IMG/VR virus record: IMGVR_UViG_3300042309_000417
Coordinates: 1 to 25,302 of that record
Length of the DNA stretch: 25,302 nt
Reading direction: 5' to 3' (one strand)
From: a virus
The notes below the pieces were generated by a model. That model saw only the letters and a list, made by a program, of their open reading frames with translations, searched no databases and was not told the DNA's origin. This document shows positions 9,904 through 24,036 of the stretch, in pieces (positions within the stretch are counted from its first letter, which is position 1; every line of letters starts with the position of its first letter). The position numbers and the translations under genes were made by a program.

Positions 9904-10341
9904 TCAAAGCTCCTTCATCATCACGATATCTGCGGGGAGGTATCCATGCTTCGCCATCGACTCGTGCAACTTTGTTCCAGATCTCGTGTGCCACAACACG
10001 CGACACGCGCCTCGTGATCTTGCTTCTGCTTCTGCAACGCGAATCATCCGACCACCGATAACGCCTCGGTATGCCGGATCGACAAACAAAGCATCGTTTG
10101 CGGCGATGATGATTGCTGGGTTGTGCATTGTCGGTGTGACGAGCATTGTGCAATAACCAACCATTCGACTTTCATCAAACGCCGCGAGCGCGAACATGAG
10201 TTTAGCATCGACAAGTGTTTGATATTGTTCTGCTGATGGATTGAATGGGAAATCAAATCCCGTTTCCGCCCAGTTAGCCGCCATCAGTTCGTGGATCAGG
10301 GGCATGAAATCCTTAGGCTGAATGAGGCAGATGTTGACCAT
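9904..10341 (-). CDS. GNAT-family N-acetyltransferase
   Basis: The 145-residue protein has the GNAT layout: an N-terminal helix pair (PKDFMPLIHELMAANW), a central strand region (MVGYCTMLVTP), an acetyl-CoA motif A (LFVDPAYRGVIGGRMIRVAEAEARSRG) and a C-terminal strand-helix (RVLWHTRSGTKLHESMAKHGY). The pyrophosphate loop RGVIGG is a degenerate form of the usual (Q/R)xxGx(G/A). The substrate is unknown; GNAT genes between terminase and portal recur in podoviruses. Its base composition is clearly less GC-rich than the terminase and portal genes on either side, which suggests separate acquisition. No clear ribosome site precedes the ATG. Confidence 0.85.
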   Translation of the reverse strand: MVNICLIQPKDFMPLIHELMAANWAETGFDFPFNPSAEQYQTLVDAKLMFALAAFDESRMVGYCTMLVTPTMHNPAIIIAANDALFVDPAYRGVIGGRMIRVAEAEARSRGACRVLWHTRSGTKLHESMAKHGYLPADIVMMKEL

Positions 10342-13930: not shown

Positions 13931-14470
13931 ATGCGTCACGCCAACCTGCCGTACCACATCTATGTCAATGTGAACAATGTCGCGCTCGGTCCAGAGATGC
14001 CAGCCGGCACGACTCGCGGCATCCTGCACGGCATCTACTGCCGGCCCGGACAGGCCATCATGGGACACGTCCTGCTTGAGAGCGGAGCCCACTGGTCAGG
14101 GATGCTGTGGCATCTGATGAGCACCGGGTACACGTTCATGGAGCAGGCGCTGACGTTGCAGCCGTGGGGTGCGATGGGCGAGGACATCGAGGCCTGGCAC
14201 TGTCACTACCTAGAGGGACTAGTGTGCTCGTCAATCCGAGGAGTGGCATTGCACGGTCGTCACACCGGGATCATGATCGACTGGCGGGACGGGTTCAGCA
14301 GGTACCCCGACGAGCACAAACCGCTCAACATGGTGCACCTGAACGGCGGCCAGTTCGCGCTGCTCCCGAACAACTACCTGATGTTCAACGACAAGCACCT
14401 CGTGCGCCCGGCAGCACGTCCAACCGTCAGCAACTACCGGCGCAACTCCGAAGTCATTTGGGGTCCGTGA
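13931..14470 (+). CDS. Conserved phage hypothetical protein
   Basis: The 179-residue protein has no signal or membrane segment and is rich in His, Trp and Gly. Patterns such as GIYCRPGQAIMGHVLLESGAHWSGMLWHLM (about residues 34-63), a central GEDIEAWHCHYLEGLVC and a C-terminal HLNGGQFALLPNNYLMFND resemble a phage protein family I have seen but cannot name. No ribosome site precedes the ATG. It is a single rightward gene, facing the metalloprotease gene with a 17-base tail-to-tail overlap, so there is no room for a terminator between them. Confidence 0.7.
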   Translation: MRHANLPYHIYVNVNNVALGPEMPAGTTRGILHGIYCRPGQAIMGHVLLESGAHWSGMLWHLMSTGYTFMEQALTLQPWGAMGEDIEAWHCHYLEGLVCSSIRGVALHGRHTGIMIDWRDGFSRYPDEHKPLNMVHLNGGQFALLPNNYLMFNDKHLVRPAARPTVSNYRRNSEVIWGP

Positions 14471-14723
14471 GCCGGTACCCCAGTTTCCAGAGCAGGCGGC
14501 TGATGTCGTTGGCGGTCGAGGCGACGGCGTCCTCGTCGAGCTCCGGCCTAGCGGCGTGCAGCGCCTCGTGGATGATGGTGTCGAGCATCTCGTGCTCTGA
14601 CTGACCACGTCGTATGCGGATGATGCGCGTGTCGGCGCTGTCGCCGTGCTCGACCTCACCGAAGTTGGTGAGGTGATTCACGAACCTAAACACCCAGTAC
14701 CGTTGGCCCAGGCGTACGCGCAT
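14454..14723 (-). CDS. Small HExxH metalloprotease-like protein (SprT-like)
   Basis: This 89-residue protein carries the zinc-protease motif in MLDTIIHEALHAARPELDED: H52, E53 and H56, with E61 or E64 as possible third ligand. A C-terminal helix, ASTANDISRLLWKLGYRL, follows. The N-terminal half looks like the small beta sheet that precedes the active helix in SprT/WLM-type domains. The cleaved target is unknown. It is the last gene of the leftward cassette, 6 bases after the 44-residue gene, and its end overlaps the rightward gene by 17 bases. The activity is inferred from the motif. Confidence 0.75.
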   Translation of the reverse strand: MRVRLGQRYWVFRFVNHLTNFGEVEHGDSADTRIIRIRRGQSEHEMLDTIIHEALHAARPELDEDAVASTANDISRLLWKLGYRLTDPK

Positions 14724-14729
14724 GGTGAT

Positions 14730-14864
14730 TCACTTGAATCCGCGCTTCATTGCCTTATAAGCGGACGGGCTGACGGTGCTCTTGGACTTGGGTCGGCTGG
14801 TGCCGGCTGCCCGTCGTGCGTTGATGTTTGCGTACAGGCCGCGCTTTGCTGCTTTCTTTGCCAT
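14730..14864 (-). CDS. 44-residue basic protein
   Basis: This short gene reads MAKKAAKRGLYANINARRAA and ends SAYKAMKRGFK, with a Ser/Thr/Lys-rich middle. It is strongly basic. Very similar short proteins with the pattern G(L/Y)YANIN(A/K)(K/R)R occur in many phages, so I believe the gene is real. The ATG at 14864 is 2 bases after the stop of the 88-residue gene, behind a GAGG site. The function is unknown; nucleic-acid binding is only a guess from charge. Confidence 0.8.
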   Translation of the reverse strand: MAKKAAKRGLYANINARRAAGTSRPKSKSTVSPSAYKAMKRGFK

Positions 14865-14866
14865 GT

Positions 14867-15133
14867 TCAACCTCGTGAAGTCTTGCCGCTGCACTTCCAC
14901 TTTGCACGCGAGAGCCGCAGCGGGCTGTTCGGATCTCGTGCCGCCTTGGGATGCTGCTTCATCTGCGCGAACGAGCGTGCGCAGTAGGCGTCGCCCTTGG
15001 CGGTGCCAGGCTTGATGCGGTCGCCGCCGCCCTTGGCCTTGCCGGCCTGACCGTAGCTCACGGTTCGGGTGCGTCCCGTCTCCGGGTTGCGAACGGTCTT
15101 GGCGAATCTCTTTCCTTTTGCAGGTGTCGGCAT
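14867..15133 (-). CDS. 88-residue basic Gly/Lys-rich phage protein
   Basis: The protein has KGKRFAKTVRNPETGRTRTVSYGQAG, then KPGTAKGDAYCARSFAQM and a C-terminal LSRAKWKCSGKTSRG. This pattern is common to a small phage protein often found in structural or accessory regions; its role is not known to me. The two Cys residues and high charge could bind metal or nucleic acid, but nothing proves it. An AGGAG site precedes the ATG. The gene lies in one cassette with the phosphoesterase and the 44-residue protein. Confidence 0.8.
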   Translation of the reverse strand: MPTPAKGKRFAKTVRNPETGRTRTVSYGQAGKAKGGGDRIKPGTAKGDAYCARSFAQMKQHPKAARDPNSPLRLSRAKWKCSGKTSRG

Positions 15134-16806: not shown

Positions 16807-17123
16807 TCACCGAGCACACCATCGACCTCGATCTGGACTGGCTGGATGACGACAACGTCAAGGCCATCGAGTTCGCGCAGGAAAACCACGTCGTTGGCAT
16901 CATCACCGCGCACTGGTCCGAAGAGTCGTATGAGGACTTCGACCAACACGGCGGCTCCTACCCGTCAACAGCGTGGAAACTGTGGACCTGGACGCTTGAG
17001 GGCGTTCTCGTCAACGGCCATCAAATGCACATGCCTGACCTGCCTGCCGGCATCACGGCGGCGTTCGACGCGCACGGTTGCGAGAAGGAACTGATGCGCG
17101 AGCAGCCGAGGGGTACGCGATGA
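16803..17123 (+). CDS. Early hypothetical protein
   Basis: The start is set at the GTG at 16803, because GGAGG lies five to six bases before it and the GTGA overlap with the previous stop is typical of coupled genes; a TTG at 16791 is the alternative. The 106-residue protein is acidic and Trp-rich, with LDLDWLDDDNVKAIEFA, then a HWSEESYEDFDQHGG and WKLWTWTLEGVLVNGHQ. I recognise no family. It overlaps the lysozyme-like gene by 4 bases (ATGA). Confidence 0.72.
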   Translation: MITEHTIDLDLDWLDDDNVKAIEFAQENHVVGIITAHWSEESYEDFDQHGGSYPSTAWKLWTWTLEGVLVNGHQMHMPDLPAGITAAFDAHGCEKELMREQPRGTR

Positions 17124-17536
17124 TCGCTGTCATCATCGCAGCCGCGCTGGTCGTGCCGCCGCCTGCCGGCACAGACGTGAACCGCATCCTGACCGCCATC
17201 GCAGCCGTTGAGACTGGTGGCGAGCGTCAGCCGGACCGTGCCGTCGGCGACAACGGGAAGGCGCTCGGTCGTTTCCAGATCTGGGAGGTGTACTGGAAAG
17301 ACGCCTGCGAGTACGACAAGTCGCTTCGTTCGCGACCGTACACCGACGTCACCGACCCTGAATACGCCAGGCGCGTTGTCATCGCCTACCTGTCCCGCTA
17401 CGCACCGGACTGGTCGATTGACACGGTGTCGAGGATCCACAACGGAGGGCCACGTGGCGCAACAGGGAAGCGCCGGAGAGCCACGGACGGCTACGCGGCC
17501 AAGGCCGCACGGGAGTACGCACGATGCGATACTTGA
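17120..17536 (+). CDS. Lysozyme-like protein with hydrophobic N-terminus
   Basis: The ATG at 17120 is chosen since it forms an ATGA junction behind a GAGGGG site. The 138-residue protein starts with a short hydrophobic stretch (MIAVIIAAALVVPPPAG) that could be a signal or signal-arrest segment, though no N-terminal Lys/Arg is present. The rest has the lysozyme layout: a candidate catalytic E31 in IAAVETGGE, GRFQIWEVYW (about 50-59), AYLSRYAPDW and RIHNGGPRGATGK. The spacing resembles i-type (destabilase) lysozymes more than T4 lysozyme. A peptidoglycan-cutting role fits. Its place in an early operon, directly before a methyltransferase that overlaps it by 13 bases, is unusual for an endolysin. 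Confidence 0.72.
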   Translation: MIAVIIAAALVVPPPAGTDVNRILTAIAAVETGGERQPDRAVGDNGKALGRFQIWEVYWKDACEYDKSLRSRPYTDVTDPEYARRVVIAYLSRYAPDWSIDTVSRIHNGGPRGATGKRRRATDGYAAKAAREYARCDT

Positions 17537-23205: not shown

Positions 23206-23241
23206 CAGGCCCGACACGCATGGAGCTACGCGCCGGGCCTG
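23206..23241 (-). terminator. Candidate weak terminator of the right-hand leftward block
   Basis: An 8-bp stem, CAGGCCCG (23206-23213) with CGGGCCTG (23234-23241), encloses a 20-base loop. On the minus strand it is followed by TTGTCGT, which is a poor U-tract. Its position after the last leftward gene, back to back with the early terminator, supports the role. Confidence 0.45.
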
Positions 23242-23268: not shown

Positions 23269-23388
23269 TCAGATCTTGCTGCCGTACTTGCCACGCAGCA
23301 CCCAACCGGCGCCAACGCCAAGGACGAGTGCGAGGCCGGCGAACCAGATGTTGCCGAGGAAGTCGGAGAACGCGCTAGCGAGAATCAT
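23269..23388 (-). CDS. 39-residue membrane protein, possible holin-like
   Basis: The gene starts at an ATGA overlap with the lipoprotein gene and encodes MILASAFSDFLGNIWFAGLA followed by a hydrophobic stretch to about residue 31 and RGKYGSKI. One membrane helix (about 13-31) and a basic C-terminus are clear. Its size, helix and place after a spanin-like gene suggest a lysis or membrane role, such as a very small holin, but I cannot prove this from sequence. Confidence 0.68.
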   Translation of the reverse strand: MILASAFSDFLGNIWFAGLALVLGVGAGWVLRGKYGSKI

Positions 23389-23864
23389 CGTTTGCCTTTC
23401 TTGATGCGGCGATAGGCGGCATCGAAGACCGGGTCACGCGCCCGCATAGCCGCCACGAACTCCCGCTCGGATTCCGGGCGGGCAGGGTCTAGCATATCAG
23501 CAGCCAGTTCAGCGGTGGCAACCTGGCGCCTCGGCAGCCACCCGATGGCGATCCTCAGGGCCGTGAAGGCACCGCTCTGCCACAGGACAAACGCCACCGC
23601 CACGCCGGCCAGCGCGATCCCCCACCACTTCAGGGTGGACAGCCATGCCGGCACCCGGTCCTGCACCCCGGGCAACTCGCCGTGGATGTCGGCGGCCAGA
23701 CCGTCGATGACATCGGCATGGTGCACCACGACCGCGTCGTCGGCCTGCTGGCCGTGGTGGCGCAGAGTCTGGGCCTCGGCCCGGATCTCGTTGCTGCGGT
23801 CTGCAATGCGCTGCACGGGGCTGCAAGCAGCCAGCAGCAGGATGATGGCACTAGCCAATCTCAT
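23385..23864 (-). CDS. Lipoprotein with internal membrane segment, possible unimolecular spanin
   Basis: The ATG at 23864 is chosen because it yields a lipoprotein signal, MRLASAIILLLAAC, with lipobox LAAC and acceptor C14; the longer frame lies over the upstream gene. The 159-residue product has a periplasmic-type helical part (about 20-75), a membrane helix (KWWGIALAGVAVAFVLW, about 79-95) and a basic/acidic cytoplasmic tail (about 100-159). An outer-membrane anchor plus inner-membrane helix in one chain is the plan of u-spanins such as T1 gp11, which fuse the two membranes at lysis. The long cytoplasmic tail is unlike T1 gp11. The start overlaps the upstream gene by 14 bases. Confidence 0.75.
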   Translation of the reverse strand: MRLASAIILLLAACSPVQRIADRSNEIRAEAQTLRHHGQQADDAVVVHHADVIDGLAADIHGELPGVQDRVPAWLSTLKWWGIALAGVAVAFVLWQSGAFTALRIAIGWLPRRQVATAELAADMLDPARPESEREFVAAMRARDPVFDAAYRRIKKGKR

Positions 23865-24036
23865 CGAGCTGCTCGGGACGCACGAACTGGCCGTCGATAT
23901 AGCGGTCACCAATGGCTCCGCCGGTTCCATCGACCCACTCACCATCGAGGTTGCTGTGCACCCAATCCAGCCCACCCGGATCACCAACGATGATCAGGTC
24001 GATAACAACACCGTCTTGGATACGTGCAGCGATCAT
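23851..24036 (-). CDS. Small tail-associated protein
   Basis: This 61-residue protein reads MIAARIQDGVVIDLIIVGDP and ends IGDRYIDGQFVRPEQLDEIG. The plan (an N-terminal IQDGVVIDLIIV strand, a central WVDGTGG and a C-terminal IGDRYIDGQF) resembles short proteins encoded next to phage tail-fibre genes, some of which are fibre chaperones or fibre tips. It starts at an ATGA overlap with the glycine-rich gene, which supports a joint role. Confidence 0.75.
   Translation of the reverse strand: MIAARIQDGVVIDLIIVGDPGGLDWVHSNLDGEWVDGTGGAIGDRYIDGQFVRPEQLDEIG

Follow-up and report, generated by a model that had tools for sequence, protein, structure and literature searches.

A lipoprotein gene with a micro-protein partner in uncultured phages, probably an unusual variant of the unimolecular spanin

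Among the closest described counterparts of the locus reported here is gp11 of phage T1, a unimolecular spanin (u-spanin) of 133 aa with about 8 residues after its membrane helix and a periplasmic domain described as beta-rich, according to the available part of PMC6139136. In the same part of that source, none of the 58 u-spanins described has a periplasmic Cys, the shortest two-component spanin pair measures 62 residues, and 91 of 677 phage genomes have no recognised spanin, with BPP-1, which is related to the phages studied here, among them. Phages in which no spanin has been recognised still pose an unsolved problem. A cytoplasmic domain that is conserved, or a micro-protein as partner, was found described for no spanin in the available parts of PMC6139136, PMC7830690, PMC9239132, PMC11671585 and PMC12195039.

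The window is the whole stretch of viral DNA that was analysed, with a length of 25,302 nucleotides. A sequence-only reading of it had proposed a lysis pair at 23269-23864, made of a u-spanin-like lipoprotein and a 39-residue membrane protein. The coordinates proved exact, and the lipobox, the membrane helix and the ATGA that joins the lipoprotein stop to the micro-protein start were all confirmed. Both are genuine genes, and their features are as follows.

23385..23864, minus strand: lipoprotein gene, 159 aa, ATG start (translation and conservation among relatives)
23823..23864, minus strand: signal peptide (residues 1-13) and lipidated Cys14 (codon 23825-23823), from the sequence
23742..23819, minus strand: predicted periplasmic helix 1 (residues 16-41), from AlphaFold2
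23655..23735, minus strand: predicted periplasmic helix 2 (residues 44-70), modelled as running antiparallel to helix 1, from AlphaFold2 and fold alignment
23574..23642, minus strand: inner-membrane helix (residues about 75-97), from hydropathy and models
23388..23573, minus strand: conserved cytoplasmic tail (residues 98-159), opening amphipathic and basic, GAFTALRIAIGWLPRR, from charge and conservation
23269..23388, minus strand: gene of the 39-aa micro-protein, with a single membrane helix at about residues 10-28, predicted N-out/C-in from sequence and charge
23851..24036, minus strand: 61-aa upstream gene, context only, with a 14-nt overlap between its stop and the lipoprotein start
23206..23241, no strand assigned: 8-bp inverted repeat CAGGCCCG/CGGGCCTG beyond the pair, in the intergenic gap between convergent genes

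The inverted repeat has no T run, and a terminator scan at 23206..23241 gave no consensus site; the gap that holds it is likely the end of the late operon.

Relatives were collected by a single-sequence search, which gave 39 loci from uncultured phages, and by an alignment search, which gave 161 IMG/VR stretches; 80 of the 161 were retained and distinct sequences from those were used. One relative lies in a contig binned to a Rubrivivax MAG. Locus L040 (genome G012) has a broken lipoprotein frame, probably an assembly fault, and was therefore not counted with the family. One deposited protein, A0A6J5P7G9 of an uncultured Caudovirales phage, is a family member with 43% identity over 157 columns, and it carries the generic name 'Lipoprotein' with no function assigned. 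The window lipoprotein gave no useful match in PHROGs, Pfam or NCBIfam, and tblastn at E up to 1 found no relative in 50,697 phage records.

The translation of 23864-23385 begins with MRLASAIILLLAACSPVQRI, in which the lipobox is LAAC at residues 11-14. Cys14 is invariant in all 74 lipoprotein sequences of our alignment (A4). Of the 76 distinct sequences, 73 have a spacing of exactly 60 from this Cys to Trp74; the outliers are one with 59, one with 71 and one without a lipobox match by regular expression. The region between anchor and membrane helix has 60 residues, and the distance from the GWLPR motif to the C-terminal end is 50-59 residues in 75 of the 76. The tail after the helix, for which about 60 residues had been suggested, has 62. 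Its invariant residues include R104, G108, P111, R112, E131, R134, E135, R141 and D144, and its amino acid identity is higher than that of the periplasmic part (0.66 against 0.58). The pN/pS values, 0.39 for the tail and 0.55 for the periplasmic part, are indicative only because synonymous changes are near saturation. By these alignments the tail is the best conserved part of the protein. Its first 20 residues carry a net charge of +3.6, compared with +0.3 before the helix (74 sequences), and the lipoprotein is therefore taken to be C-in, with the tail cytoplasmic as had been supposed.

When compared with T1 gp11, the family has the same N-terminal lipobox, single inner-membrane helix and Nout/Cin topology, and a periplasmic Cys is likewise absent (0 of 74 sequences). 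On the other hand, it carries the 62-residue tail in place of a few residues, and its periplasmic models are all-helical, so that the mainly-beta periplasmic domain, a typical although not strictly defining u-spanin trait, is not predicted for it. There is no detectable sequence similarity between the window lipoprotein and gp11, and no homology between the micro-protein and the T1 holin. That the pair is an ordinary T1-type u-spanin plus holin, the version given by the sequence-only reading, fits the anatomy in outline but is contradicted by the helical fold, the long conserved tail, both missing homologies and the behaviour of the micro-gene, which stays with the lipoprotein while XhlA-like candidates lie elsewhere. 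We regard it as highly improbable, and the lipoprotein is not a T1-type u-spanin.

Two AlphaFold2 models of the lipoprotein were built, from alignments of 23 and 74 sequences, with mean pLDDT of 71.3 and 70.8 and pTM of 0.36 and 0.37. They place helices at residues 16-41 and 44-66/70 with a core pLDDT near 85-90, followed by a membrane helix at 73-97 and short tail helices. Both models and a re-alignment to the PDB concur on a hairpin over about residues 13-72. The nearest solved folds for residues about 13-71 are hairpins of Rop (ColE1 Rom), Ala2Ile2 variants, with Z of 8.2-8.4 and rmsd of 1.7-2.0 over 56-58 residues, and a sequence profile meets the same Rop variant weakly (0.083). Rop is a cytoplasmic RNA-binding protein, and the arrangement alone is shared; a Z near 8 for a helical hairpin may reflect only a common arrangement. 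A hydropathy correlation for the antiparallel register was not discriminating, as several registers score. The periplasmic region is thus predicted to be a Rop-like helical hairpin and not beta.

In such a hairpin the membrane helix comes to lie next to the lipid anchor. This predicted proximity would suit either a protein that stays entirely at the inner membrane or a fold-back fusogen in its closed end state. For membrane sorting, LolCDE requires about 10 unstructured residues starting at the Cys, and Asp at position +2 is a Lol avoidance signal, according to the available part of PMC11671585. In the models, helix 1 begins two residues after the lipid Cys, and outer-membrane delivery is doubtful because the helix starts right behind it with no unstructured linker. 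This predicted lack of a linker is the main result opposing a u-spanin reading. The sequence of T1 gp11 after its Cys looks flexible, unlike that of the window lipoprotein. At position +2, 72 of the 74 sequences have N or S, and the other 2 have Asp.

These results bear directly on the possibility that lipid and helix both sit in the inner membrane, with the hairpin in the periplasm and the tail acting in the cytoplasm, so that the lipoprotein and the micro-protein would together control lysis, for instance by holding back a holin or by gating the release of endolysin. The missing linker and the hairpin ends lying on one side agree with it, as do the conserved tail and the two sequences with Asp at +2. 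In some lineages a one-helix coiled-coil protein also overlaps the lipoprotein start. In its 88-aa type the helix is followed by RR, which fits N-out/C-in; the Mu releasin gp25 has the same topology according to the available part of PMC9239132. However, the predominance of N or S at +2 does not favour such retention, whole genomes would be left without a spanin, and the neighbouring coiled-coil proteins do not match DUF2730; they were accordingly rejected as DUF2730 releasins. We consider this explanation rather unlikely, though it is the strongest of the rivals to the u-spanin-like reading.

The micro-gene was counted over loci gathered by the lipoprotein. A micro-ORF of one blastp cluster follows the lipoprotein in 74 of 75 loci, starting anywhere from 11 nt ahead of the lipoprotein stop to 44 nt past it; the lone exception, L101, is where the contig ends (the same contig as L024). 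A hydropathy threshold recognises the micro-ORF in 73 of the 75, with lengths of 31-47 aa, and most loci have the ATGA overlap (56 at offset -1). From these counts the micro-gene appears inseparable from the lipoprotein gene. Among 29 representatives, the C-flank of the helix is more positive than the N-flank in every one, which makes N-out/C-in likely, and a small-xxx-Gly motif is present in 28. The window micro-protein, a very short query, had no PHROG, Pfam or NCBIfam match.

The pair was found on four unrelated phage backbones, on the late strand every time. Portal, capsid and terminase of the epsilon15/BPP-1-like type are common to the window and to G002, G003, G006, G010 and G020, and by tblastn these three proteins of the window group had no match in G009, G011, G021 and G022. 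G009 and G011 differ from these in their portal and capsid family; the genes for portal, capsid, terminase and DNA polymerase in G021 we take to be T7-like, and the portal and head genes of G022 Mu-like, both labels being our own reading of the gene families. Direct repeats of at least 100 bases at the ends of G002, G003, G009, G011 and G022 indicate that these five are probably complete. In G022 the pair lies downstream of the head and tail genes, while in G021 (L163) it lies between the scaffold and capsid genes, an uncommon site for a lysis gene. From this distribution the pair appears to move as a unit.

Several other genes of the window were recorded in the same comparison. A 179-aa protein at 13931-14470 (plus strand) is conserved in genomes of the epsilon15/BPP-1-like family and transcribed against its neighbours, and it has a local match to a PHROG named ferredoxin (4.8e-8). 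An 89-aa protein at 14454-14723 (minus strand) with a HEALH motif is kept across backbones and has no family match. A tiny basic protein at 14730-14900 (minus strand), containing NINARRAAGTSRPKSKSTVS, has look-alikes among the small basic genes of the unrelated backbones G009 and G011. An acetyltransferase-like gene at 9904-10341 (minus strand) lies between terminase and portal, as it does in sister phages.

By portal and capsid, the nearest named genomes are Limnohabitans phage DC33, zth2-2 and two Manatee Spring phages, with BPP-1 next by portal; the capsid proteins of DC33 and zth2-2 are about 80% identical to that of the window lineage. The taxonomy line of DC33 (L149, PQ492659.1) places it in Inoviridae, although it has the genes of a short-tailed phage. 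In DC33, zth2-2, ctEw122, ctQRb9 and BPP-1, the slot after the tail fibres at the end of the late operon is a lysis cassette. In that of DC33, an Rz (PHROG Rz-like spanin, 9.4e-8) with an LSGC lipoprotein embedded in it stands beside an L-Ala-D-Glu endolysin; that of zth2-2 holds an endolysin, a two-helix protein and an Rz with an embedded Rz1-like lipoprotein; that of ctEw122 a spanin-like lipoprotein, a lysozyme and one-helix proteins; and those of ctQRb9 and BPP-1 endolysins. By synteny with these sister phages, the position of our pair is the putative lysis slot. The Rz/Rz1 of DC33 and zth2-2 thus share the slot with the window pair but differ in consisting of a separate inner-membrane coiled-coil protein and a proline-rich lipoprotein, and no homology was found between them and the pair. 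None of the sister-phage lysis genes had a tblastn match in the window or in seven family genomes searched; the DC33 endolysin family occurs in 3 of 4 sister records and in 0 of 24 family records.

The slot also bears on the idea that the pair is a late envelope modifier unrelated to lysis, acting for example in superinfection exclusion. Lipoproteins with such roles are known, and the pair is mobile and can sit apart from other lysis genes, as in G021. The lysis slot of the sister phages, the late strand, and the finding of a single lipoprotein and no spanin in whole genomes point the other way, and we judge the idea unlikely.

The searches for another spanin were as follows. The Rz profile phrog_13 matched 0 of 12 family records (positive control DC33, 3.9e-8), and phrog_2466, which detects the positive controls DC33 and zth2-2, gave no true match in the 17 family records scanned, one of them the window; its two weak matches in G001 and G014 were rejected as an Ala-rich structural gene between the acetyltransferase-like gene and the portal. 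PF03245 matched 0 of 16, which is weak evidence because this detector also missed the evident Rz of DC33 and zth2-2. A six-frame lipobox scan, which replaced earlier scans that were too strict and missed family members, found one credible lipoprotein per genome, the family member, in the window and 8 of 9 relatives (G002, G003, G006, G009, G010, G011, G020 and G021). It recovers the DC33 Rz1, the ctEw122 lipoprotein and T1 gp11, and misses the embedded zth2-2 lipoprotein and the family member of G022, the latter because it has no K/R before the h-region. Eleven further lipobox ORFs in family genomes were set aside: none is called a gene, and 10 have no ribosome-site motif. As the sequence-only reading had stated for the window, Rz/Rz1 was not found in this fragment, nor in the whole relatives examined. 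Together, the lysis slot, the lack of a detectable Rz and the single credible lipoprotein support a spanin-like role.

The same searches weigh on a two-component arrangement in which the lipoprotein is the outer-membrane part and an upstream coiled-coil protein, or the micro-protein, the inner-membrane part. The upstream gene overlaps in several lineages, and one upstream coiled-coil protein has a weak Rz-like match (E 0.063). However, the window and most loci have no such upstream partner, the charges of the 88-aa type point to C-in, an inner-membrane helix is already present in the lipoprotein itself, and neither Rz profile revealed a separate partner. This arrangement is very unlikely.

The pair has no adjoining endolysin. 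One candidate for the lineage lies elsewhere in the window:

17120..17536, plus strand: Destabilase-type lysozyme with a hydrophobic N-terminus, candidate endolysin of the lineage (family match and tblastn)

It occurs in 6 of 23 family records, plus G003 by tblastn. As a phage endolysin this i-type-like lysozyme would be unusual, with no K/R in its N-terminus, a place on the early strand and a confinement to some lineages. The endolysin of the other lineages was not found, and a scan of three giant virion proteins (one partial) gave no Pfam domain explaining lysis. Whole relatives also encode a separate one-helix coiled-coil protein of 67-99 aa, whose position varies and which in the window's group is XhlA-like and a holin candidate. 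The sequence-only reading had named a separate Rz/Rz1 pair and a canonical holin elsewhere in the genome as evidence that would count against it; in the whole relatives no Rz/Rz1 turned up, and a holin-like XhlA candidate did. Since the micro-gene stays with the lipoprotein and these candidates lie elsewhere, the micro-protein is read as a partner first and a holin second; a holin role for it is doubtful, and on the sequence evidence the holin appears to be the weaker half of the lysis-pair reading.

At the level of sequence, the lipobox, the single membrane helix, the long conserved tail and the inseparable micro-gene are all borne out. As for the u-spanin claim itself, its plan, late position, lysis slot and lack of a competing spanin held, and homology to gp11 and a beta-rich domain did not. 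Many phages of Gram-negative hosts have this two-gene unit, and it is probably an unusual version of their outer-membrane lysis step. More specifically, we give an even chance to an alpha-helical, fold-back, u-spanin-like lipoprotein with an obligate micro-partner as the outer-membrane disrupting protein of the phage. In this mechanism the outer membrane would carry the acyl end and the inner membrane the helix, and the 58-residue stretch would span the periplasm in extended form while the wall is intact. Once the endolysin has removed the wall, the stretch would fold into an antiparallel helical hairpin, and its closure would bring the lipid anchor and the membrane helix, and hence both membranes, together. 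At the inner membrane, the N-out/C-in micro-protein may assist, as may the first, basic and amphipathic segment of the tail.

The u-spanin-like reading is supported by the lysis slot, the lack of another spanin or a periplasmic Cys, N or S at +2, the four backbones and the hairpin. Against it, 60 residues are short for a spanner; a tail better conserved than the periplasmic part is odd for a mere anchor; no endolysin adjoins the pair, and the G021 site lies between scaffold and capsid; and matches to predicted helical hairpins can be generic, with a low pTM. Overall, the pair is most likely a variant of the unimolecular spanin idea, unproven as yet. A bolder and rather less likely proposal is a second, structurally distinct u-spanin class that is alpha-helical, draws the two membranes together by closing its hairpin like class I viral fusion proteins, is aided by its conserved cytoplasmic tail and an obligate membrane partner of 31-47 residues, and travels as a mobile two-gene unit among unrelated phages.

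If the lipoprotein is not a spanin, the pair would be a widespread late membrane pair without a known function. If it is, a widespread group of uncultured phages would gain the spanin they have seemed to lack, and a conserved cytoplasmic side and a micro-protein partner would be established as features that a spanin can have.
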